A DNA stretch of 24,021 nucleotides, taken from assembly GCA_021791145.1 (NCBI GenBank), contig JAJYXE010000052.1, positions 1 through 24,021 on the forward strand, written 5' to 3'. This document shows, piece after piece, positions 2,383 to 16,473 of the stretch; positions within the stretch are counted from its first letter, which is position 1; each line of letters begins with the position of its first letter. The position numbers and the translations under genes are program-made. A model generated the notes under the pieces. That model saw nothing but the letters and a program-made list of their open reading frames with translations. It made no database searches and had not been told where the DNA came from. The DNA comes from Actinomycetes bacterium. Its GTDB lineage: Bacteria; Actinomycetota; Acidimicrobiia; Acidimicrobiales; RAAP-2.

Positions 2383-3096
2383 CTAGTGCGCGGAAGGCGT
2401 GGGCGGGATCGGGGACGCGTAGCCGGCGAGCGCCGATCGCGTACCAGGAGTGTCCGCCTGGTACTGGTCGGTGCCAGTCTCCACGACGCTGAACCCGGTG
2501 CGATCCCCGTCGCCGTTCACGACCTCCGGCCCGCGGGCTCCGGGAGGGTCGCCGATCACGATTGCAACGTGGACTGCAGTGCCCGTCCTGGGGTCGAGCC
2601 CGTAGACGGCGACGTCACCAGGCTGAGGCGAGTAGCCGCTTCCAACTGGATGCCACGTACCGTGGGAAACCGCCCACAGGTAGAAGCTTCCCGACGCCGC
2701 GTTCACGTCTCCGGGGCTGTAGCCGTACGTGAACTGCGCACTCGCCTCCCGCCACACCCACGCTGCGAAGTCCGCGCACCACTCTTCGCTGCGCAAGCCC
2801 GGACCGCAGGCTGTCGCTGTGCCCGCTCCCCAGAAGGCGCTGAACTTGTTGCAATAGGAGTGGGCGGGATCGGTGTGGTAGCCGAGTTGAGATTCGGCGA
2901 TGGTCACGATGCGGGCCCGAAACGGTGTGGAGGGAAGCGGCGGCAGGGCCGCTCTGGTCGAGAACGAGAGCGCGGCAGCGACAAGTCCGACGACCAGGAC
3001 CGCGAAGAGCGCCAGCGCGGCGGCCCGCCGTCTGCGCGCCCTCCTCGTGGCAGCTGGCTGCGCCCTCGCGGAGGGAGTGTCCTCAGCCCGAGCCAC
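2383..3096 (-). CDS. CHAP-domain secreted/membrane-anchored cell-wall hydrolase
   Basis: The product has 237 residues from GTG at 3096. An Arg-rich N-terminus is followed by a hydrophobic segment at about 25-50 (ALALFAVLVVGLVAAALSF), giving an uncleaved anchor or signal peptide. The CHAP domain spans about 62-225. Its nucleophile Cys is C107 in EEWCADFAAWVW, the catalytic His is H176 in VHVAIVIGD, and a polar third residue may be N194 in NGDGD. CHAP enzymes cut peptidoglycan peptides as amidases or endopeptidases outside the membrane. Extra cysteines near C82 and C97 may form a disulfide. The gene overlaps the upstream lipoprotein gene by 14 bases and is last in a three-gene operon. The preceding genes may encode a partner or regulator. 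Substrate specificity cannot be told. Confidence 0.87.
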   Translation of the reverse strand: MARAEDTPSARAQPAATRRARRRRAAALALFAVLVVGLVAAALSFSTRAALPPLPSTPFRARIVTIAESQLGYHTDPAHSYCNKFSAFWGAGTATACGPGLRSEEWCADFAAWVWREASAQFTYGYSPGDVNAASGSFYLWAVSHGTWHPVGSGYSPQPGDVAVYGLDPRTGTAVHVAIVIGDPPGARGPEVVNGDGDRTGFSVVETGTDQYQADTPGTRSALAGYASPIPPTPSAH

Positions 3097-6505: not shown

Positions 6506-7726
6506 TCAGGGTCGGCCAGCCCGCGTGGGCGTCTCCAGCTGCCCGATGACCCAGTCGAGCTCTCGAGCGACGTAGTCGACGATGTCTCCGGTCTTCAGGT
6601 GCGCCGGTAGCACGTCCCAGGTATAGGTCTCGACCTCCAGGTGGGCCGACAGCGGACTGGCTCGGTGCACAGCGAGCGCCTGTTCGATCGCGAACCGGGT
6701 CGAACGGAACGGCCCGAGCTCGTCGAGGAAGACTGGGACGTGGAAGTGAACGCGCCATTCGGCTGGTCTCGGCGCTCTTCTCCAGGACTCGATCGCGTCC
6801 TCGAGATTGAGATACTGCAGGCGCGAACCTTCGCTCAGCTCGGTCGTCTGGGTCAGATAGATCGAACGTGCGTACCGCTCGAGCTCCTCGATCGCCTCGG
6901 GGCCGACCTCTGGCACCCACAAGGCCGCAGCCTCCTGAAGCTTGAAGATCGGCACCTCTGCCTGCCGCAGCTTGGCGAGCGAGGACGCGACGTCTTCGAA
7001 CCCGACCGACTGGTGGCCGATGTCGAAGACCACCCCCAAGTGACGGCGCAGGTGCTCCTCCGCCTGCCCTTCGTCCACCTGAGCAGCCTGGGCGAGCCGA
7101 GCGATCGCCCTGGGCGAGTGGATCTCCTCTTGGAAGAAACGGATCGTCTCGTCAGTCGACTCGAGGTAGCAATAGGGCTCAGGCTCGAGAGCCAGAGTGA
7201 CGAGGCGCCCGGTCCTATGCCGAAGCTCCACGAGGTGCGCGACGACGCGCAGCACGTTGTCGGTCATCACGGTGAGGTAGGCGCGGTCACGCACCGACGG
7301 GCGGAACGCGAGCGGGGCCGACTGGATGGAAGGGTCCACGTCAGGTGGTGAGAGCATGGCGAGCAAGTCGGCAACCTGCTCGGTGTACCGCAGGCGCTCC
7401 TCGGTGCTCCAATCAGGCTCGTACACCCGCTCCTTGACAGTGGTGCCCTTGAAGGATCCTTGCGGGAAGGCGTTGACCGTGTAGACGTAGAGGTCGTTGT
7501 CCTCCAGGATCCCGGCGAGCTCGCGGCGGGCGGAAGCGTCCTGGGTGAGGCGGGTGGCCGAAGCCCCGGAGAGCCGGAGCGAAACACCGAAGCGTGTGCC
7601 AGGAGAGATGACCGACTTCACCTTCGGCACATACGCTGACAAGCTGTCGCGCAGCTCTTCCCAGGTGTCGCTCGGATGCACCAAGGTCGAGTACGAAAGA
7701 TGGCCAAGATGGTCGGGGAGTTGCAT
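6506..7726 (-). CDS. eboE: EboE-like TIM-barrel protein (xylose-isomerase-like fold)
   Basis: The product has 406 residues. Family hallmarks as I know them are all here: HLSYSTLVHPSDTWEEL at the N-terminus, then GVSLRLS, LYVYTVNAFPQGSFKG, VKERVYEPDW, LALEPEPYCYLEST and GVVFDIGHQSVGFED, spaced along a TIM barrel. EboE proteins belong to the ebo cluster, thought to help move a precursor across the membrane, usually with the prenyltransferase-like EboC and with EboA, B, D and F. None of those is in this window. Here the neighbours are an alcohol dehydrogenase and an oxidoreductase remnant, so a sugar isomerase/epimerase-like role is also possible. A strong AGGAGGG site stands six bases before the ATG. 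Family call is firm, function is not. Confidence 0.85.
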   Translation of the reverse strand: MQLPDHLGHLSYSTLVHPSDTWEELRDSLSAYVPKVKSVISPGTRFGVSLRLSGASATRLTQDASARRELAGILEDNDLYVYTVNAFPQGSFKGTTVKERVYEPDWSTEERLRYTEQVADLLAMLSPPDVDPSIQSAPLAFRPSVRDRAYLTVMTDNVLRVVAHLVELRHRTGRLVTLALEPEPYCYLESTDETIRFFQEEIHSPRAIARLAQAAQVDEGQAEEHLRRHLGVVFDIGHQSVGFEDVASSLAKLRQAEVPIFKLQEAAALWVPEVGPEAIEELERYARSIYLTQTTELSEGSRLQYLNLEDAIESWRRAPRPAEWRVHFHVPVFLDELGPFRSTRFAIEQALAVHRASPLSAHLEVETYTWDVLPAHLKTGDIVDYVARELDWVIGQLETPTRAGRP

Positions 7727-7732
7727 CGCTTT

Positions 7733-7739
7733 CCCTCCT
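7733..7739 (-). promoter_or_regulatory. Ribosome binding site of the EboE-like gene
   Basis: AGGAGGG on the minus strand, six bases before ATG 7726, fixes that start. It contrasts with the many genes here that lack such a site. It lies in the 48-base gap after the oxidoreductase remnant. Confidence 0.75.
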
Positions 7740-7774
7740 GGATTGTCTCGAGTCGCGGTCTCGTCTCCTGCCCA

Positions 7775-8269
7775 CTACGATCCACACGAGCTTCGACCGG
7801 TGCGGTGCTGCACGCGCTCGGGACGGTGCGAGGCGGCAGAAGCGAGGATCGCCTCGGTCACGGCGACGGTGTGGAGGATCTGGTCGAGAGGGATCGGGGG
7901 ATCCCCCTTGCCCGAGGCGGCGCGGGCGAAAGCGTCGAGAGCTGCTCTGGCGATGTCACAGGTCTCAGCGTCCCAGACGCGTTCTTCGTTCTCGACCGTC
8001 CGGGCGATGCAGCGACCGAAGAGCCTCGACCGCCTCTCCTCGGAGGTCGCGCTGGAGGTGTGGGTCATGCCTTCGAGGCGGACGAACTGTTCGCTCCCAT
8101 ATACCTGAAAGCTGAAGGACGGCGCGGTCGCGGTGATGAGCCCGAGATAGCCGGTCATCCCGTTGCTCATCGCGAACAGGATGGACGTCGTGTCGTCGGA
8201 ATCGATCGCGACGACACGCTTCACGCTCTGGCAATAGACGGACTGGACGTCGCCGAACAGGTCGACCAT
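7775..8269 (-). pseudogene. C-terminal remnant of Gfo/Idh/MocA-family oxidoreductase
   Basis: The 164-codon frame contains only the C-terminal half of this family, beginning near the conserved VDL...FGDVQSV segment and continuing through the beta-sheet substrate domain (SILFAMSNGMTGYLGLI, FQVYGSEQFVRLEG). The N-terminal Rossmann domain (about 150-180 residues, with the NAD-binding GxGxxG and the catalytic EKP motif) is missing. Immediately upstream the sequence changes to a permease remnant in the other direction, so the gene was cut at about 8255-8285. GGAG is found nine bases before the ATG at 8269, so a short product could be made, but it would lack the cofactor site. It probably once led the operon with the EboE-like protein and the dehydrogenase. 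Confidence 0.8.
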
Positions 8270-8272
8270 CGC

Positions 8273-8527
8273 GGGAGCTCCGTCGTCCTCGAGGTCATCG
8301 CAGCGGTGATCATCGGCGGCACGAGCCTCAGCGGGGGAAAGGGCGGTCTCGTGGGCACGCTCGTCGGGGTGCTGTTCATCGAGATCATCAACGATGGATT
8401 GACCTTGCTCAACGTGAGCCCGTTCCTCGTCGAGTTCATCGAAGGCGTGCTCATCTTCGCGGCGATCTCGATCGACGTCGGCTACGGCGGGAAGCTTCGC
8501 AGTCGCGTGCTGGGCTCTCGCTCCTGA
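8273..8527 (+). pseudogene. C-terminal remnant of a sugar ABC transporter permease (RbsC type)
   Basis: In one plus-strand frame the codons from about 8273 read as the last 84 residues of a ribose/xylose/inositol-type permease. The family signature VIAAVIIGGTSLSGGKGGLVGT is followed by the last membrane segments (GVLFIEIINDGLTLLNVSPF, GVLIFAAISIDVGYGGK) and a stop at 8525-8527. The first three quarters of a usual permease (about 320 residues) are absent, and upstream bases belong to the opposite-strand oxidoreductase remnant. This is a non-functional fragment. ATPase and binding-protein genes are not present nearby. Confidence 0.82.
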
Positions 8528-8581
8528 CCGGCCGGCGAAGCTCGGGGACCGGTTCTTGGGGGTCGTGCCCGCGCCCGCGGG

Positions 8582-11500
8582 TCACAGCCACCGTGCGCGG
8601 TCGGAGACCGGGTCGATGACGTCGATCACCTCGTCGAGGGGCACGATGGCCACTGCGGCGCAGCGGTCCTCGACACCGAAGCTCAGCAGCAGGTCGTCTC
8701 CTCTGCGGGCGAGGCCGGCGCAGAACTCGACGCCGTCGTGCACGAACGCGAAGGCAGGCGAGATCCCGCTCGGCGTGAGCGTCGCGTCCAGCGTGACGAA
8801 GCGATGGAGGTAGTCGGGCCGGGCATTGCCGACCACCCTCGTCTCGTGGGTGACGAACAGGTAGCCGTCGTCGATGCGTAGACCCTGGGAGCTGCCCCGC
8901 AGCCCCGCGAACCGGCAGTCGGTCGGCACCCGCCTGATCTCGCGGAGCTGCCGGGCCTCTTCCTCCCAGCGGTAGACGACGAACGGACGGCAGGTGTAGA
9001 CGAAGTGCAGACGTTCGTCGACGACGAACGGCATCCAGTTCTTCTCGTGACGTGTGGCGTCCGGCCCGGCAAGCACGGCTTCGAGGTGCCAGCGCTCGCC
9101 GTCGACGCGCAAGAGGACCATGCGGCAGATGCCCTGAGGCTCGAGGTCCCGACAGGTCGCGACGGCCCACCAGTCATCGTGCCAGCGAAAAAGTCGGCAG
9201 TCCTCGAAGCCGAGCACGCCGGTCTGGTAGCGAGGCACGTCCCCTGGCTCGGCCAGCATCCGGTAGTCGACGAGCGAGAGGTCGTCGCCCAGGCAGAGGA
9301 GCACGTTCTCGGTACGCACGGTGCCGTCGGGCGCGTGGACGAGGTGGCCGGAGCCGTCGAGCTCGTAGTTGACCGCGCGCAGCACGGCCGAGAGTGCGTC
9401 CTCGCTGCTGGCGATGCTGGGGTTCGTCGCCGCCCAGCCGAACCGCAGTGGCGCGGTCGGCAAGGGAGCGATGTCGGCGCGCGGGCACAGGTCGCGCAGC
9501 TCTGCGTGGCGGGTCTTCCGGCAGGCGCCCTTGGGGTCGGCACCGTGGTCCCCCAGCCACCGGCGATTGCCCTCGAGCGCGGCCTTCACCTCGCAAGGTA
9601 CCCCGTCTCGCGCGAGGAGCTCGTCGGTCAACGCGAGCGCCTCGTCGAGCTCGCCCACATGGGCGGCCGCGATCGACCGTTCGAAGCGCATCCCCCACTC
9701 GTAGACCCAGCGATGCACGAACAGGATGTCGCGGGGCATTGGGATGTCGACGCCGATCGCGGTCGCCCAGTTCGCGGTGGCGAAGTCGCCCACGGAGCGG
9801 GCGCGCACGGCGATCTCGTAGAGCGGCTCGCTGCGTGAGGGCCGGCGCTCCCAGGTGTCGACGAGCAGCGAGGAGCCGGCCGGCCAGTCCGCGTCGGCCG
9901 TTAGCATTCCGAGCTGGAGCGCGGCGTAGAACACCTCCTCGTGCCAACCGCCCAGCGACACACGTCGCCGGTACAGCTCAGCCGCCCGTGCCCGGTCTCC
10001 CATGTCCCGGCAGGTCTGCGCGAGGTAGAAGACGGTCCGGGGGTCGTCAGGCGTCTCGTGGTACTGACGCTCGAGGAGCTCCAGGTCTCTGGCGAGCTTG
10101 TCCGCGCGAGATCCGCCGTCGGCGTGGTGGGTGACCGACCATCGATCGAGCCGTTCGAGGGTGAACGGCTCCTCGCTGCTCAGGTACTCGTGGGTCGCCC
10201 CCACGAAGTGCCACTGGCGGTCTCCGCGGACCAAGCGCGGAACCGAGTAGCGCAACGGGCCCTCGTGGGCGAGGAGGTAGCCGTCGGCCGTGAGCAGCGG
10301 AAGCGCACCCCGGACGTTCAGGGTCATGTCGGCGTCCAAGAGCAAGAGGTAGTCGGCCGAGCCGCGCGCGAGTGCCAGGAGCTCAGTCCGATTGGAGCCG
10401 AAGTCTCGCCACGGCCGTCGGTGCAGTGCCCCTGGGATCGCACCCAGGAGCTCGGCGACCACCGCTGGGGTGTCGTCGGAGGATCCGGTGTCGACGATCA
10501 CCCACGTGTCGATCACCCCCAGCACTGAGTCCAGGCAGCGGCCGACGACCCTCGCTTCGTCCTTCACGATCATGCACAGCGCCACGGTCTGGCGCGCCGT
10601 CCGCGTCGCGGGCTCGGCGGGGGACGTGGCGGTGTCGGCGCTTCGCACGCGGACGGCCCCGGAGGGCTCCGGTGCGTCGAGATGGGCGGCGACGACCTTT
10701 TCCGCGTCGACCAGGCGATCTTCGAGATCCCGGTGCAGGCGCGCCGTCCCAGCCTCGAGCGACGAGCGAAGGAGGCGGCACCGCTGACGCGCGTCGTGCC
10801 AGCGTTCGAAGCGGACACAGTGCTCGACGTTCGCCAGGACGCTGGGCTCATCGCCGCGCACGAGGTCCCAATTCGCGAGCGAGCTCGGGTAGTCGCCGAA
10901 CGTGTAGTCGAACAGGTCCGGGTGGAGCGCGCTGAGGGCGCTCAGCACGGTCTGGTCGGTGGGCAGCCTCCCGCCGTCGACGGCACGGTCCAGCTCCTGT
11001 GCAAAGAGCCGACCGAGGCTCACGAGCTCGTCGGCGCCGCCCCGGACGAACCCCGCGGCGATCCGGCCGCGTTCGAGGCGGTGGAAGTCCCAGTCCACCT
11101 CCTCTCTGAACACCGGCATCATCTGCAGCAAGGTCGGGCGGTCGCAGGGCGCGGGAAAGCTGGCCGGCCGCCGCGCCACGTGCCCGATGCCGACGTCCAT
11201 CCAAGCGAAACGGCCCGTGCCGAACGGATCGGCGGCGGCGACCTCGGCCAGCAGGCCGATCTTCGACAGGTTCACCACGAGGTGCCAGCCGTCGTCCTTG
11301 CCGGGCTGGCCGTTGTCGATGCAGGGGAGCTGCTCGAAGGACGCCGCACGGTCGGCCATTGCCAGCGCCTCGAGGGGCCGGGGCACGATCAGGGTCTGGT
11401 GCTGCGGGTCGAATTGACTGCGTCTCGCCGTCACCCAGCCCGCGAGGTGGGGGTCCACGAACGCGACGAGCGGCAGTGGCTGGAGCAGAGTGAGCCCGGC

Positions 11501-11590
11501 GTGCGCCTGGTAGTGGCCGAGAGGCCTCGCCCCCCGGGCACCCCGGCTCGACAGGTCGTAGAGGCAGGTGACGATGGTCTGGTTCGACAC
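8582..11590 (-). CDS. Giant multidomain glycosyltransferase (HtrL-like + GT2 + helical repeats + GH130-like propeller)
   Basis: The product has 1002 residues from GTG at 11590. Residues 1-300 resemble HtrL/YibB/WlaTC-type sugar-transfer proteins (IVTCLYDL, LPLVAFVDP, FAWMDVGIGH). Residues 334-490 are a GT2 domain with ALCMIVKDE, IVDTGSSDDT and a DxD at D419-D421 (LLLLDADM). Residues 505-670 form TPR-like helices (DPRTVFYLAQTCRDMGDRARAAELY) as in many GT2-TPR proteins. Residues 713-990 look like a five-bladed GH130-type propeller with NPS at 723, EDCRLF at 796-801 and EKNWMPF at 849-855. The protein is predicted cytosolic, with no membrane segment, and probably uses a nucleotide sugar through the GT2 part. 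It starts 51 bases after the collagen-like gene on the same strand, so that product is a candidate acceptor. No Shine-Dalgarno is obvious. The domain calls are by pattern, the N-terminal one being least certain. Confidence 0.85.
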   Translation of the reverse strand: MSNQTIVTCLYDLSSRGARGARPLGHYQAHAGLTLLQPLPLVAFVDPHLAGWVTARRSQFDPQHQTLIVPRPLEALAMADRAASFEQLPCIDNGQPGKDDGWHLVVNLSKIGLLAEVAAADPFGTGRFAWMDVGIGHVARRPASFPAPCDRPTLLQMMPVFREEVDWDFHRLERGRIAAGFVRGGADELVSLGRLFAQELDRAVDGGRLPTDQTVLSALSALHPDLFDYTFGDYPSSLANWDLVRGDEPSVLANVEHCVRFERWHDARQRCRLLRSSLEAGTARLHRDLEDRLVDAEKVVAAHLDAPEPSGAVRVRSADTATSPAEPATRTARQTVALCMIVKDEARVVGRCLDSVLGVIDTWVIVDTGSSDDTPAVVAELLGAIPGALHRRPWRDFGSNRTELLALARGSADYLLLLDADMTLNVRGALPLLTADGYLLAHEGPLRYSVPRLVRGDRQWHFVGATHEYLSSEEPFTLERLDRWSVTHHADGGSRADKLARDLELLERQYHETPDDPRTVFYLAQTCRDMGDRARAAELYRRRVSLGGWHEEVFYAALQLGMLTADADWPAGSSLLVDTWERRPSRSEPLYEIAVRARSVGDFATANWATAIGVDIPMPRDILFVHRWVYEWGMRFERSIAAAHVGELDEALALTDELLARDGVPCEVKAALEGNRRWLGDHGADPKGACRKTRHAELRDLCPRADIAPLPTAPLRFGWAATNPSIASSEDALSAVLRAVNYELDGSGHLVHAPDGTVRTENVLLCLGDDLSLVDYRMLAEPGDVPRYQTGVLGFEDCRLFRWHDDWWAVATCRDLEPQGICRMVLLRVDGERWHLEAVLAGPDATRHEKNWMPFVVDERLHFVYTCRPFVVYRWEEEARQLREIRRVPTDCRFAGLRGSSQGLRIDDGYLFVTHETRVVGNARPDYLHRFVTLDATLTPSGISPAFAFVHDGVEFCAGLARRGDDLLLSFGVEDRCAAVAIVPLDEVIDVIDPVSDRARWL

Positions 11591-11641
11591 GGCTCGTGCT
11601 GGGGCGCGACGCGCTGCACCTGAGGGTTCGGCGATGCGACC

Positions 11642-12481
11642 TCAGGGCCCCGTAGGCCCGGTCGGACCGGTCGCGCCCGCTGAGCTCGGACCCGTGGGGC
11701 CGGTCGGACCGGCCGGTCCCGTCGCACCCGCGCTGCCCGATGGCCCGGTCGGCCCCTCGGACCCGGTCGGTCCTTCGGGCCCGGTCGGCCCGGCGATGCC
11801 GCTCGGTCCTTCGGGCCCGGTCGGCCCCTCGAGCCCGGTCGGACCGGTCGGCCCCTCGAGCCCGGTCGCCCCGGTGCTGCCGGGAGGTCCCTCCGAGCCC
11901 GGCGGCCCGGACCTGCCGGCGGGTCCGGTCGGCCCCTCGGGCCCGGCGGGCCCGGTCGGGCCGAGGAGGGCCGCGAGCGTCTGGTCGTAGCTGGCCATCG
12001 CCGCCGCCGTGCCGTCGGCGTCCTCGCCATAGACGCGGGTGACGCTGAAGCCCAGGCTCTTGATGGCAGCCACCACGTTCTCTGTCACGGCCAACGGTCC
12101 GCCCACGACCACCACGAGATCCGGCGCAAGCGACTCGAGCGCGCTCCTCGTCGTGCTCGACAAGGACGTGGGGGACGTGAGGAGCAGCGGCATGCCGACC
12201 TTGCCGGCAACAGAGGCCGCGACGGCGGCGTCGAACGCGGTCAGGTTCTGGGCCACGAAGACGATCTTGCGAGGCTGGGAGCTCGCACCGGCGGTGAGAG
12301 ATCCGAGCCCTCCGGTCGCGGCGAGGATGCCGCCGACGGCGGCCCCTCCGCCACCGAACAGGATCGCCCGACGACCGACGCGGCGGGTGGCCAGGTCTCC
12401 CCGCTCGTGCGCCGCGGGATCGACCCTGCGTGGTCCACGTCCGCTCGTGCCGTCAGGTCCGCTCTTGGTCGACTCGGCCAT
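11642..12481 (-). CDS. Tat-type surface protein: CWB2-like repeat with collagen-like Gly-X-Y tail
   Basis: The product has 279 residues. The N-terminal region has a twin-arginine segment ([20 protein letters not shown], about 31-50) and a hydrophobic core, consistent with export. Residues 71-165 match a cell-wall-binding repeat 2 (CWB2): [46 protein letters not shown], then [16 protein letters not shown] single copy is seen, where families often have three. Residues 174-279 are collagen-like: 31 unbroken Gly-X-Y triplets, a two-residue break (SA), then three more and GP. Thr fills the Y place in 16 triplets, as in glycosylated bacterial collagens such as BclA. There is no C-terminal globular or anchoring domain. 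GAGGGGG stands close before ATG 12481. The giant glycosyltransferase follows 51 bases later, likely in one operon. Triple-helix formation and glycosylation are inferences. Confidence 0.87.
11645..11962 (-). repeat. Collagen-like (GGN-CCN-NNN) coding repeat
   Basis: This stretch encodes 34 Gly-X-Y triplets in 9-base periodic sequence with many GGCCCGGTC-like units and close to full GC content. The opposite strand also reads as Gly-Pro-rich triplets, so only the export signal and CWB2 part fix the true strand. Confidence 0.95.
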
Positions 12482-12533: not shown

Positions 12534-12768
12534 GCGCACTTGACATCGGCGCCGCTCGGTTCCTGCCGCGCCCGACCCTCGGCGGATGGCAGACTCTGGC
12601 AGGACACCTCGGTGCGAGGCGCCCTGCCCCGCTCGGTCGTGTCGCGCCATGATGGCAGGAGGCGATCGTGCCGAGGCGGCGAGACGACGAGCCGAGAAAG
12701 GGTGGACCGAGCGGTCCCGCAGCCCGGGGGCGCACCGATCGCATGGGCCGACCAGGAGCGAGTCATCG

Positions 12769-13959
12769 ATGAGCAGTCCACGAGCCCTCGTCCTCACCGG
12801 GGACGTGGGAATGGGCCACCACGTCGTGACCGAGGTGGTGGCGGCCAGCCTCTCGCAGATGGGGTGGTCGACCGAGGTCCTCGACTGCATGGGGCTCCTC
12901 GGGCACCCCTACGCGCGCGCCGCAGACTGGGTGTTCCGCCGTCTGACGGCCATGCCGGCTCTCTACGACGCGATCCACTTCTCCCACTTCCGCACCGGGA
13001 GCCGGCTGGCGATGGCCATGGACCGCGCCGCGACCGCTCGGCTCGTGCCGGCTCTCACCGCCTACGTCGCTGACGACGAGGTCGAGGTGATCGTCTCCAC
13101 GTTCGCCACGGGTGCATCCGCGATCGGCAAGCTCGCCTCCGGCGCGAAGCTCCGCCGGACGCCGGCGACCGTGGCGCTGTGCACCGACGTCTGCCCTCAC
13201 AGCCTGTGGGTGCGCGAGGGCCTCCATCTCTTCCTCGTGACCTCGGCCGCGGCCGCCGCGGCGGTCCGCAGGTACTCTCCCGCACCGCCGATCGCCGTCG
13301 TGCCGGCGCCGGTTCGCCGAGCCTTCCACGACGCTCCATCCCAGCTCGAGGCGCGGCTCTCGGTCGGTGTCGATCCCGCGGCGCGCTGCGTGCTGCTCAT
13401 GGGCGGCGGCTGGGGCCTCGGCCCGCTCGCAGAGACCGCGGACGCGCTGGGGCGTCGCGGCGTGGTCGTCTTGGCGGTGGCCGGGCACAACAGCCAGCAG
13501 GCTCAGGCGCTGGCGGCGATCGCCGACCGTGTGCCGAGCGTGGTGCCCTACGGGTTCACCGACCGGATCCCCGAGCTGATGGCCGCGGCGGACCTCGTGC
13601 TCACCACGCCGGGCGCCACGACCTGCAGCGAGGCACGGGTCGTCGGGCGACCGCTCGTGCTCCTCGACGTGATGCCGGGGCACGGCCGGGACAACGTCCA
13701 GCACGAGCTCGAGCTCGGGGACGCAGACGTGTGCGATCCCCACCCTGGGCGCCTCGTCGACTGCGTGCTCGGCGCCCTGGAACGGGTCGCTCCCTTGGAC
13801 GCGAGGCGCCCTGCGCCCGATCGCTTCACCGAGGAGCTCGCCGACGCCCTCTCGATGGTCGGGATCCTGCCGAGCACACCGGTGCGACGGGCGAGCTCGG
13901 CACCTGGCGAACCCGCTGTGCCGGCCGCACCGCGGTCGCGGTCGAAGGAGGTCCTTTGA
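12769..13959 (+). CDS. MGDG-synthase/MurG-type glycosyltransferase (GT28-like)
   Basis: The product has 396 residues from ATG at 12769, with AGGAG about ten bases upstream. An earlier in-frame ATG at 12586 would add 61 residues without protein-like character. The N-terminal domain matches the MGDG synthase N-domain (LTGDVGMGHHVVTEVVAASLSQMGWSTEVLD, with the glycine-rich GMGHH loop). The C-terminal domain has a GT-B nucleotide-sugar site (LLMGGGWGLGPL, VPYGFTDRIPELMAAADLVLTTPGATTCSEA). Such enzymes move Glc, Gal or GlcNAc to lipid acceptors at the cytoplasmic membrane. The tail is disordered and basic (RSRSKEVL). HpnJ starts two bases after its stop, so translation is probably coupled, and a hopanoid polyol such as bacteriohopanetetrol is a likely acceptor. 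That is inference from context. Confidence 0.87.
   Translation: MSSPRALVLTGDVGMGHHVVTEVVAASLSQMGWSTEVLDCMGLLGHPYARAADWVFRRLTAMPALYDAIHFSHFRTGSRLAMAMDRAATARLVPALTAYVADDEVEVIVSTFATGASAIGKLASGAKLRRTPATVALCTDVCPHSLWVREGLHLFLVTSAAAAAAVRRYSPAPPIAVVPAPVRRAFHDAPSQLEARLSVGVDPAARCVLLMGGGWGLGPLAETADALGRRGVVVLAVAGHNSQQAQALAAIADRVPSVVPYGFTDRIPELMAAADLVLTTPGATTCSEARVVGRPLVLLDVMPGHGRDNVQHELELGDADVCDPHPGRLVDCVLGALERVAPLDARRPAPDRFTEELADALSMVGILPSTPVRRASSAPGEPAVPAAPRSRSKEVL
13945..13952 (+). promoter_or_regulatory. Ribosome binding site of hpnJ
   Basis: AAGGAGGT is a full anti-Shine-Dalgarno match nine bases before ATG 13962. It lies within the last codons of the upstream glycosyltransferase gene and fixes the start. 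Confidence 0.85.
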
Positions 13960-13961
13960 CG

Positions 13962-15395
13962 ATGCTGCGTACGCTGTTCCTCCATCCCCCCTCCTACGAG
14001 GGCTTCGACGGAGGCGCCGGCTCGAGATATCAGGCCCGACGGGAGATCCGCTCGTTCTGGTACCCGACGTGGCTGGCCCAGCTGGCGGCGCTCGTGCCGG
14101 GCAGCCGGTTGGTCGACGCGCCGGCCGCAGGGCTCGGCCTGGCAGACGTGCTGCCGCTCGCCGCGGACTACGACCTCGTGGTCCTGCACACGAGCTCGCC
14201 GTCGTTCCCCGGCGACGTCGAGGTCGTCGAGGCCTTGAAGGTGGCCAACCCCGCCCTCACCGTCGGTTTCGTGGGCGCCAAGGTGGCGGTCGAGCCGGAG
14301 CGGTCGCTCCTTGCGTCGAGGGCGATCGACTTCGTCGCCCGTGAGGAGTTCGACTTCACGATCGCAGAGATCGCCGGGGGCCGACCGCTCGAGGAGGTCG
14401 ACGGGATCGTGTACCGCGCCCCGGACGGCACCGTGGTGCGGACGCCCGACCGGGCGATCCTCGAGGACATGGACCGGCTTCCTTACGTGACCGAGGTCTA
14501 CAAACGCGACCTTCGGGTGGAGGACTACTTCATCGGCTACCTGAAGCATCCCTACCTCTCGCTCTACACGGGCAGGGGCTGTCGTTCGCAGTGCACCTTC
14601 TGCCTTTGGCCCCAGACGGTGGGCGGGCACCGCTACCGCACCCGAAGCGTCGAGCACGTGCTCGGCGAGATGGCGCTCGTGCGGGACTACTTCCCCCAGG
14701 TGAAGGAGGTGTTCTTCGACGACGACACCTTCACCGACAACCGGCAGCGGGCCGAAGAGATCGCACGGGGCATGGCGCGTCTGGGTCTCGAGTGGTCGTG
14801 CAACGCCAAGGCCAACGTCCCCTACGAGACGTTGAAGGTCTTGAGGGAGCACGGCCTGCGCCTGCTGCTCGTCGGGTTCGAGTCCGGCAACCAGCAGATC
14901 CTGACCAACATCAAGAAGGGCGTGAAGCTGGAGCGAGCGCGGCAGTTCGCAAAGGACTGCCGTGACCTCGGCATCACCATCCACGGGACCTTCATCGTCG
15001 GGCTCCCGGGCGAGACCAAGGAGACCATCCAAGAGACCATCCGCTTCGCCCGCGAGATCAACCCGCACACCATCCAGGTGTCCATCGCCGCGCCCTACCC
15101 GGGGACCGCGCTCTACCGGCAGGCGAAGGAGCAGGGGTGGCTGACAGACGACGGTGCCGTCCTCGTGGACGAGCACGGCATGCAAACGGCGGCGCTCTCC
15201 TATCCGCACCTGAACCGGACGGAGATCTTCGACTCGCTCGACACCTTCTACCGGAAGTTCTACTTCCGAGCGGGCAAGATCGCCGAGATCTCGGCCGAGA
15301 TGCTTCGCGACAGCGACGTCATGAAGCGGCGCCTTCGTGAGGGTGTGCAGTTCGTGAGCTTCCTGCGCAAGCGGCGCCAGCCAGCGTCGGCGTGA
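13962..15395 (+). CDS. hpnJ: Hopanoid biosynthesis radical SAM protein HpnJ
   Basis: The product has 477 residues, the length of known HpnJ. Its sequence follows the family from end to end: LFLHPPSYEGFDGGAGSRYQ, REIRSFWYPTWLAQ, LHTSSPSF, FVARNEFDFT-like FVAREEFDFT and YFIGYLKHPYLSLYTGRGC. The 4Fe-4S cysteines are C207, C211 and C214, followed by LWPQTVGGHRYRTRS. An N-terminal B12-binding-like fold (about 1-130) precedes the radical SAM barrel. In Burkholderia HpnJ acts after HpnI and HpnK and turns the glucosamine head of bacteriohopanetetrol into the cyclitol ether. No hpnI, hpnK, squalene-hopene cyclase or hpnH/G gene is in the window. A MurG/MGDG-type glycosyltransferase is directly upstream instead. 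Downstream the gene converges with the amidase gene. Confidence 0.96.
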   Translation: MLRTLFLHPPSYEGFDGGAGSRYQARREIRSFWYPTWLAQLAALVPGSRLVDAPAAGLGLADVLPLAADYDLVVLHTSSPSFPGDVEVVEALKVANPALTVGFVGAKVAVEPERSLLASRAIDFVAREEFDFTIAEIAGGRPLEEVDGIVYRAPDGTVVRTPDRAILEDMDRLPYVTEVYKRDLRVEDYFIGYLKHPYLSLYTGRGCRSQCTFCLWPQTVGGHRYRTRSVEHVLGEMALVRDYFPQVKEVFFDDDTFTDNRQRAEEIARGMARLGLEWSCNAKANVPYETLKVLREHGLRLLLVGFESGNQQILTNIKKGVKLERARQFAKDCRDLGITIHGTFIVGLPGETKETIQETIRFAREINPHTIQVSIAAPYPGTALYRQAKEQGWLTDDGAVLVDEHGMQTAALSYPHLNRTEIFDSLDTFYRKFYFRAGKIAEISAEMLRDSDVMKRRLREGVQFVSFLRKRRQPASA

Positions 15396-15438: not shown

Positions 15439-16473
15439 TCAGGAGGACGAGCTGTCGAAGTACTGCTCCACCGCCTGCGCCACGCCCTCGGCGATCGCGG
15501 CGTGGCCGGCGGCACTGTTGGCGATCGAGCCTTCGAAGGGGTCCGAGATGAAAAGGGGCTCGATGAGGGCGCCAGGCATGTCGCTTGGCGTTGTGAACCA
15601 GCCGGGATAGGCGGGGCCGAGGAGGAGGAGGTGGTGGTAGGCGGCCGCAGTTGTTGTGAGCGGGGCGGCGCCCAGTGTTGTGTCGGGCTGGACCCCGTCG
15701 TTTGGGATGTGCCAGCCGTGGGCGTTCATGCGAGCGAGCACGTCTCGCTGAAGAAGCGTCGCCAGTCGCTTGCTCTCGGCGGCGAAGGAGCGATCGGGGT
15801 CGTACGCGGTGAGGCTGCCGGCGTTCGTCGGTGACGGCCCGGTGTCCATGTAGATGCCGACGAGAATTGTCGCACGTGCCAGGTTGGCGCAGACGTCCCG
15901 TGCCGCCACGTCGGCCTTTGCGCCTTCCACCGAGAGCACGCCGCCTGTGAGGTCCGCCGGGGTCGGCTTCAAGACGTCGGTGTTCGTCGTGCGCGAGACG
16001 ACGACTCGAAAGCCGTGCGCGCGCAGCAGGTTCATCGTCTCGAGCTCGATCTCGAGGTTCTCAGGCGCCTCGTAGATCACGCGCCCTGTCTGGGTGACGC
16101 CCTTTCCGCCCGGGTCGACGCCGCCGTGCCCGGCGTCGATGAAGACCGTGTGGTGGTTGTCGCCCGCAGAAGGTGCGAACGCGACGCAGGCACCGCTCGC
16201 GAAGCGGGATCGGTCGAGCGGGACGCCGCCGGAGGCGGAGACGGAGAGCGAAGGTCCAGGCCTGGATGGTCTCGCGCGCGAGGCGTCGCGCGCCTTGCCG
16301 CTCGTGGCGACGAGCACGACGAGCAAGATCGCTGCCGCGAGCGCGGCGAGCGTCCCCGCCACCGTCAGCCTGCGCTTTGCAAGCGAAGGGCGCAACGGGG
16401 CACGACGTCGAGGTCGTCTTCGGCCAGGGGTGTGTGCAGGCTGCGCCTTCCTGGTGTCCTCTCGTCGGGCCAT
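15439..16473 (-). CDS. N-acetylmuramoyl-L-alanine amidase family (amidase_3) protein, one zinc ligand altered
   Basis: The product has 344 residues. An Arg-rich N-terminus and a membrane segment (about 36-57, TVAGTLAALAAAILLVVLVA) place the enzyme outside, tethered or exported. The amidase_3 domain spans about 108-340. H116 lies in FIDAGHGGVDPGGKG, the second zinc ligand is probably E138 (APENLEIEL), and the catalytic Glu is E305 (GALIEPLFISDP). The third zinc His, normally in a VSIHAN/D motif, is replaced by Tyr208 (LVGIYMDTG), codon TAC at 15850-15852. The family cuts the bond between muramic acid and the stem peptide. With Y208 activity may be weak, changed or lost. TACCGT seven bases before the ATG suggests a leaderless transcript, though the AT3-SGNH gene ends just 57 bases upstream on the same strand. 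Confidence 0.85.
   Translation of the reverse strand: MARREDTRKAQPAHTPGRRRPRRRAPLRPSLAKRRLTVAGTLAALAAAILLVVLVATSGKARDASRARPSRPGPSLSVSASGGVPLDRSRFASGACVAFAPSAGDNHHTVFIDAGHGGVDPGGKGVTQTGRVIYEAPENLEIELETMNLLRAHGFRVVVSRTTNTDVLKPTPADLTGGVLSVEGAKADVAARDVCANLARATILVGIYMDTGPSPTNAGSLTAYDPDRSFAAESKRLATLLQRDVLARMNAHGWHIPNDGVQPDTTLGAAPLTTTAAAYHHLLLLGPAYPGWFTTPSDMPGALIEPLFISDPFEGSIANSAAGHAAIAEGVAQAVEQYFDSSSS

Follow-up and report, generated by a model that had tools for sequence, protein, structure and literature searches.

In a 24,021-nucleotide stretch of DNA from a soil actinobacterium of the Acidimicrobiales (contig JAJYXE010000052.1; hereafter the window), we describe a conserved pair of genes, of which one encodes a short surface collagen with one CWB2 module per chain and the other a very large enzyme that probably decorates the neighbouring collagen with sugars. 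Our reading is that the products of the pair form a collagen stalk on the wall, which would be glycosylated in the cytoplasm, leave by a twin-arginine translocation (Tat)-type route and be anchored by a CWB2 trimer formed in trans; we give this reading a probability of about 0.5. The putative role of the collagen as acceptor is supported by the conserved adjacency of the genes, by a contrast in threonine content between genomes with and without the enzyme, and by an experimental precedent.

Both genes lie on the minus strand, as do all features of the pair given below. The first is an open reading frame (ORF) of 279 residues, starting with ATG (12481..11642) and delimited with the help of Pfam, the homologues P0002-P0008 and their alignment. 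The second, a candidate multi-domain collagen glycosyltransferase of 1002 residues recognised from the ORF, Pfam and a structure model, starts with GTG (11590..8582). A gap of 51 bases (11591..11641 in the ORF list) separates them. Third-position GC is 0.85 in the first ORF and 0.89 in the second, as coding frames in GC-rich DNA should show; the window is GC-rich, and the named relatives are assemblies of Acidimicrobiaceae and other Actinomycetota. A first-pass annotation had reported the two ORFs, their spacing, a CWB2-type module and 34 Gly-X-Y triplets with 16 threonines, and all of these were recovered at the same positions.

Three other loci with readable context hold a full-length relative of the enzyme, at 72% (L001), 62% (L002) and 49% (L113) identity. 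In four out of four readable loci, the window included, a CWB2-collagen ORF stands directly before the enzyme on the same strand, with a gap of 38 bases in L001, 50 in L002 and less than 60 in L113; further full-length homologues (for example P0017 and P0020-P0022) come without readable context and are outside this count. Among 395 Acidimicrobiia genomes, G001 and G389 alone gave full-length enzyme matches, and these two alone also gave CWB2-collagen matches (E < 1e-20), in a search that scored a few candidates per genome, so that misses are possible. When the window ORFs of at least 150 residues were compared by tblastn with the loci of the relatives, the matches were the two genes and other frames lying over them. 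The earlier proposal of a dedicated collagen-enzyme pair is thus supported both by adjacency and by the co-occurrence that it had named as its check. The view that CWB2-collagen fusions are uncommon also stands, as they are rare; among the top-ranked titles and abstract openings of the open-licence literature we found no paper describing a CWB2-collagen or this collagen-glycosyltransferase pair, which is not proof of absence.

Threonine occupies the Y position in 16 of the 34 triplets of the collagen tail (47%) and the X position in none (0/34). Such Gly-X-Thr content had been taken as a sign of glycosylation, a claim that we could not retain: Gram-positive collagen-like proteins generally have 48.3% threonine at Y (PMC8968730), so that the value is ordinary, and threonine content alone was rejected as evidence. 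The general figure also fits an ordinary collagen, whose threonines would stabilise the helix unmodified while an unrelated enzyme adjoins by chance. That explanation was already disfavoured and we hold it to be very improbable; chance adjacency was rejected because it is hard to square with a pairing conserved at 49-72% enzyme identity despite different flanks.

Within the single-CWB2-collagen architecture, threonine at Y goes with the enzyme in the sets examined. Counting triplets in runs of eight or more, the CWB2-collagens of enzyme-bearing genomes had threonine at Y in 29 of 56 triplets (L113, 12/23; L082, 12/21; L081, 5/12; from genomes G389, G002 and G001, in all three of which the enzyme was found). 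For three other single-CWB2-collagens, from different lineages and enzyme-free genomes, the count was 2 of 146 (L114, 1/115; L118, 1/18; L180, 0/13; from genomes G100, G310 and G668, where the enzyme search returned nothing at E 0.001). The signal region is of the twin-arginine type with the enzyme, and Sec-like by eye in L114, L118 and L180. These last three (L114 7160-9133, L118 90-1142 and L180 1426-2292), enzyme-free and almost devoid of threonine at Y, are a ready control group. As to the precedent, SgtA of Clostridioides difficile, a GT-A domain followed by TPR that is encoded beside bclA3, transfers beta-O-linked N-acetylglucosamine (GlcNAc) onto threonines of BclA3 collagen peptides in vitro, and used only UDP-GlcNAc of three donors tried (PMC7157674).

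The enzyme had been called a giant glycosyltransferase, which its 1002 residues and GT2 domain bear out but which understates it, as three catalytic-type domains plus a TPR region were recognised. An HtrL/WlaTC-type domain (residues 1-305; 10676..11590) is seen in the structure model and lies above the cut-off of PF09612, HtrL_YibB (E 1.5e-6; 28.4 and 33.1 bits in two scans, cut-off 24.1). It is followed by a GT2 catalytic domain of GT-A type (residues 332-490; 10121..10597; PF00535, E 5.7e-8, above cut-off), in which D367, D419 and D421 are invariant in 12 sequences, and by a TPR-like helical region (residues 495-682; 9545..10108) that is sub-threshold in Pfam and rests on the structure model and a profile search. 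The C-terminal part (residues 699-995; 8606..9496) has the five-bladed propeller fold expected of GH130, with a score below the PF04041 cut-off (18.6 against 26 bits). It contains the sequence GFEDCR, which may resemble a GH130 motif, and E796, D797 and R799 are invariant in 12 sequences; when this segment was searched by itself, no solved structure was matched by sequence. No membrane-length hydrophobic stretch was seen in the enzyme. By profile, its best solved relatives are GmaR and SunS, the cut-off of the SunS equivalog TIGR04195 not being reached (19.5 against 350 bits). On the basis of sequence and fold, the enzyme core is related to protein and peptide glycosyltransferases, and its domain order, GT2 then TPR, is shared with SgtA.

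The analysis was extended to 80 loci with relatives of the enzyme. A collagen-like ORF was present in the fetched flanks of 26 of them, and within 500 bases in 12; the 26 loci span Actinomycetota, Acidobacteriota, Proteobacteria, Verrucomicrobiota and Bacillota, the phylum being assigned from the name. The background density of collagen does not exceed 1.7 domain matches per Mb (28 genomes with 248 matches over 146.6 Mb, summed by hand), a value that is if anything too high, since 20 of the 30 sampled entries were chosen for collagen in their loci. With a mean flank of 14 kb, about 2 of the 80 loci would be expected to carry collagen, compared to the 26 observed. Collagen within 500 bases was the more frequent the closer the relative, being found for 3/3 full-length enzymes (L113 included), 8/26 GT2-TPR proteins and 2/37 weak relatives; L040 and L043, partial matches where no collagen-like ORF was found, are among the 80 and in no class, and nine loci from the genome search, chosen after their matches were known, were left out of the counts. 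In an unpicked set of Acidimicrobiia regions with enzyme relatives, 7 of 15 had a collagen-like ORF (L178, which is L002 again, was left out; L163, L164, L165 and L175 are, judged by length, the contigs of L003, L005, L006 and L043).

Two relatives encode parts of the enzyme as distinct ORFs. In L166, an ORF with HtrL (by Pfam) and propeller (by tblastn to the window enzyme) at 8024-9793 is followed by a GT2-TPR ORF at 9799-11031, and then by a collagen ORF from 11112 with a twin-arginine start. In L167, a propeller ORF at 7538-8710 (recognised by tblastn, with no domain in Pfam) comes first in the row, then a collagen ORF at 8697-9218, again with a twin-arginine start, and a GT2-TPR ORF at 9264-10355. 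That the parts fused in the window occur as separate neighbours of collagen argues that they serve the collagen. Many collagen ORFs beside enzyme relatives have no twin-arginine start, for example in L016-L019, L025, L026, L169 and L170. Among these, the loci of Streptomyces (L017-L019) and Bryobacter (L025, L026) have a Gly-X-Thr collagen-like gene at about 100-325 bp from a GT2-TPR enzyme, in divergent orientation in the former and downstream in the latter, and are likely further collagen glycosylation pairs.

Another group is that of actinobacterial GT2-TPR-propeller proteins without HtrL (L003-L015), each a single ORF. The fetched flanks were free of collagen-like ORFs at 13 out of 13 of these loci, of which four (L004, L010-L012) are on contigs shorter than 4 kb. 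Architecture alone therefore does not fix a collagen acceptor, and the notion that it predicts collagen was ruled out (0/13). This clade would suit an enzyme acting on some other acceptor, be it a wall polymer, a lipid or another protein, with adjacency to the collagen reflecting a shared surface function only, as would the presence of the wall teichoic acid transferases TarS and RmlT, with lower TM-scores, among the Foldseek matches. We find this improbable in view of the four conserved pairs out of four without other clear shared genes, the matching occurrence, the threonine contrast, the split operons with collagen, and GmaR and SunS being the best solved relatives by profile.

The surface protein begins with a Tat-like signal region (about residues 33-66; 12284..12385), made of twin arginines, any residue, two hydrophobic residues and a Gly/Ala-rich hydrophobic stretch, with AGA before the mature part. 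In an alignment of eight sequences (P0001-P0008, P0001 being the window's own), R37, R38, L41 and F42 are invariant, and twin arginines, any residue and two hydrophobic residues precede the hydrophobic stretch in all eight, as well as in L002 and L113. The region fits a Tat signal, and the Tat assignment and cleavage site are putative, coming from the sequence. Next comes the CWB2 module (about residues 73-170; 11972..12265), identified by Pfam (PF04122 at residues 77-136, E 7.1e-7, 30.1 bits for a cut-off of 24.9), by a match to Cwp6 and by counting hidden Markov model (HMM) hits. The match to Cwp6 (5j72_A; whole-sequence E 1.8e-10) is best to its first repeat and weak to the other two. The motif P[ILV][ILV][LV], taken as needed for CWB2 anchoring, reads PLLL in the window protein and is kept in seven of the eight, P0008 having WVLL. 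The collagen-like tail (residues 174-279; 11645..11962; PF01391, E 6.4e-14) has 34 Gly-X-Y triplets, 31 of them uninterrupted, as compared to a longest run of at most eight in 2000 composition shuffles. The signal region and CWB2 are highly identical across the eight proteins, while the tails vary in length and sequence and stay Gly-X-Y. By arithmetic (2.9 Å per residue), 34 triplets would give a rod of about 30 nm, and the description of the product as a filament is unsupported.

The oddest point of the protein, one that the first-pass annotation did not mention, is its unusual single copy of CWB2 together with collagen. In C. difficile, anchoring needs all three CWB2 modules (PMC4973711), and the three form an intertwined pseudo-threefold prism (PMC8881574). 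The window protein has one module and not three in tandem, so that of the claim that it is wall-attached, the presence of a CWB2 domain stands, while a single module would be insufficient by the C. difficile standard. HMM counting gave exactly one copy in each of the eight aligned proteins, and every collagen-CWB2 protein examined had exactly one.

This could be put as a copy-number rule. From 82 distinct CWB2 ORFs, 16 cut at an end were dropped and the 66 complete ones counted. Of the 15 single-copy ORFs 6 had collagen, and of the 51 multi-copy ORFs none had it (Fisher P = 5.5e-5); with the query's own family excluded, the counts were 3 of 12 and 0 of 51 (P = 0.0055). HMM hits in the multi-copy ORFs numbered two to four, in most cases three. 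The regions were chosen largely for one CWB2 hit per ORF, which inflates the single-copy share; those of L113 and L114 were fetched for known collagen, with their ORFs already in the set; and L104 and L107, counted as single-copy, hold a weak, perhaps degenerate CWB2 match. In a separate search, among the best 120 of 153 proteins, 117 had at least three CWB2 hits and none of these had collagen, which was present in two of the three single-copy proteins (P0201 and P0210 closely resemble one another as well as the L118 lineage); this search spans 193-614 residues (0.55-1.75 times the query), and long tandem-CWB2 collagens could escape it. With three modules needed in C. difficile, and collagen seen only with a single copy in the sets examined, we think it simplest that the threefold comes from the triple helix of the collagen. 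Trimers of single modules are known for SLH: Deinococcus SlpA forms an SLH trimer (PMC9388160), and the predicted SLH part of the OmpM trimer resembles, at 1.0-1.3 Å, the SLH modules that stand three in tandem in Sap and SpaA (PMC10628300).

We could not establish that a trimer domain is present in every single-CWB2 protein. Of the nine complete single-copy ORFs without collagen, the five scanned (L116, L122, L123, L124 and L128) had no other Pfam domain above cut-off. The collagen-free L116, L123, L128 (2549-3748), L179 and L185 possibly have other trimerising heads; in L123, L179 and L185 a motif of DxLDGLDS/DxIDGLDS type was seen by eye.

We propose the following sequence of events. The enzyme would stay in the cytoplasm, where its GT2-TPR core would put the first sugar on Y-position threonines of the tail, and its HtrL-type and GH130-like domains might extend or trim the glycan; their roles and the identity of the sugars are putative. 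The collagen protein carries the Tat-type motif and may exit by that route, in which case it would be modified, and possibly wound, before export. Three Gly-X-Y tails would wind into the triple helix of about 30 nm, gathering three single CWB2 modules, which could form in trans the three-module prism for which clostridial proteins use tandem repeats on a single chain, and only the trimer would bind the wall polymer. A bolder version, which we advance tentatively and which has the odds against it, sees the collagen helix as a stoichiometry device that turns the tandem CWB2 anchor into an in-trans homotrimer, so that only wound collagen would bind the wall, with the glycan built in the cytoplasm by one polypeptide (peptide glycosyltransferase, second transferase and phosphorylase-like domain) before Tat export of the finished rod.

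The wall-anchored stalk has to be weighed against another possibility, in which the pair does serve collagen glycosylation, the lone CWB2 module is no wall anchor and only a remnant that helps the chains to fold or trimerise, and the protein is retained by a membrane segment or by a signal left uncleaved. Cleaved signals are usually less conserved than the Gly/Ala-rich hydrophobic stretch before CWB2, which is highly conserved, and the insufficiency of a single CWB2 module in C. difficile points the same way (PMC4973711). We consider this possibility rather unlikely: the CWB2 core is conserved, with its P[ILV][ILV][LV] motif in seven of eight proteins, and the fusion of one CWB2 module to collagen is also seen behind other signal regions (L114, L118, L180).

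Several observations weigh against a glycosylated, wall-anchored stalk. On the side of glycosylation, besides the ordinary threonine content and the collagen-free GT2-TPR-propeller clade, the threonine contrast is one of three genomes with three others, in groups that differ in signal region and ancestry, and 8 of the 15 Acidimicrobiia regions with enzyme relatives had no collagen-like ORF. The flanks of the conserved pairs were partly seen (beyond the enzyme, 0.4 kb of sequence is left in L001 and 2 kb in L002), so that shared neighbours could be missed, and one weak extra tblastn match on L001 (E 5e-7) was to an alcohol dehydrogenase ORF of the window. On the side of the anchor, 9 of the 15 single-copy CWB2 ORFs have no collagen, and may trimerise otherwise or not at all. 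The structure model of the CWB2-collagen protein is poor (pLDDT, the predicted local distance difference test, 42.6, from 8 sequences). Finally, clostridial CWB2 repeats are not interchangeable (PMC4973711), so that a trimer of identical CWB2 modules would have to bind in a more symmetric way.

If the proposed stalk is real, it would represent a second route to a three-part wall anchor, parallel to the single-SLH trimers, with a built-in check, as collagen would be displayed only in trimeric form; thanks to the copy-number rule, the idea of the anchor lends itself to a direct test. The 26 of 80 enzyme relatives with collagen-like genes nearby would nominate likely collagen glycosyltransferases across several phyla, and the three-module enzyme might allow single-step synthesis of an O-glycan on recombinant collagen, with a use in biomaterials.

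Around the pair, the window holds, just past the enzyme stop, a C-terminal remnant of a BPD_transp_2-type permease (8270-8527, plus strand; PF02653, 21.5 bits, sub-threshold), read on from an unrelated frame and probably a truncated gene, and an EboE metabolite traffic protein (6506-7726, minus strand; NF035939, 394 bits for a cut-off of 250). On the other side are a diglucosyl-diacylglycerol-synthase-like glycosyltransferase (12586-13959) ahead of the ORF of the hopanoid-associated radical SAM protein HpnJ (13179-15395, plus strand; TIGR03471, 793.6 bits), whose real start is probably later. Wall-hydrolase-like proteins flank the cassette, an Amidase_3 protein (15439-16473) and a CHAP-domain protein (2383-3096), both on the minus strand.

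Among known systems, GmaR, which modifies flagellin, and the SunS/ThuS glycocin S-glycosyltransferases share with the window enzyme the GT2 core and the start of TPR. Compared to SunS, the enzyme is far below the equivalog cut-off, has extra domains and probably differs in acceptor. Its propeller recalls the GH130 mannoside phosphorylases and the Leishmania MPT mannosyltransferases, which are CAZy family GT108, but falls below the PF04041 cut-off and is fused to glycosyltransferase domains. The Gly-X-Y region matches the models of the collagen-like adhesins Scl1/Scl2 and Lcl, from which the protein is set apart by scores far below their equivalog cut-offs and by a different anchor. The clostridial SlpA, Cwp6 and Cwp8 have the same CWB2 module, three in tandem per chain instead of one with collagen. 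The proposed likeness to OmpM and Deinococcus SlpA lies in a single wall-binding module on each chain and a rod that brings about the trimer; there, the module is SLH and not CWB2, the rod a coiled coil and not collagen, and the proteins have outer-membrane barrels. The closest system is SgtA-BclA3 of C. difficile, where the gene of a GT-A-type enzyme with TPR likewise stands beside a collagen-like gene whose product is modified on threonine (PMC7157674). The window has this same arrangement, a GT2-TPR enzyme gene next to a collagen-like gene, the likeness to SgtA being one of domain order. SgtA differs by its 358 residues, without HtrL or propeller, and BclA3 is a protein of the spore exosporium, whereas the window collagen bears a CWB2 module together with a Tat-like signal. 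The pair is real and conserved, and falls within known kinds, as a collagen with a putative glycosyltransferase akin to SgtA-BclA3, in which the enzyme is larger and the CWB2 anchor is probably formed in trans.

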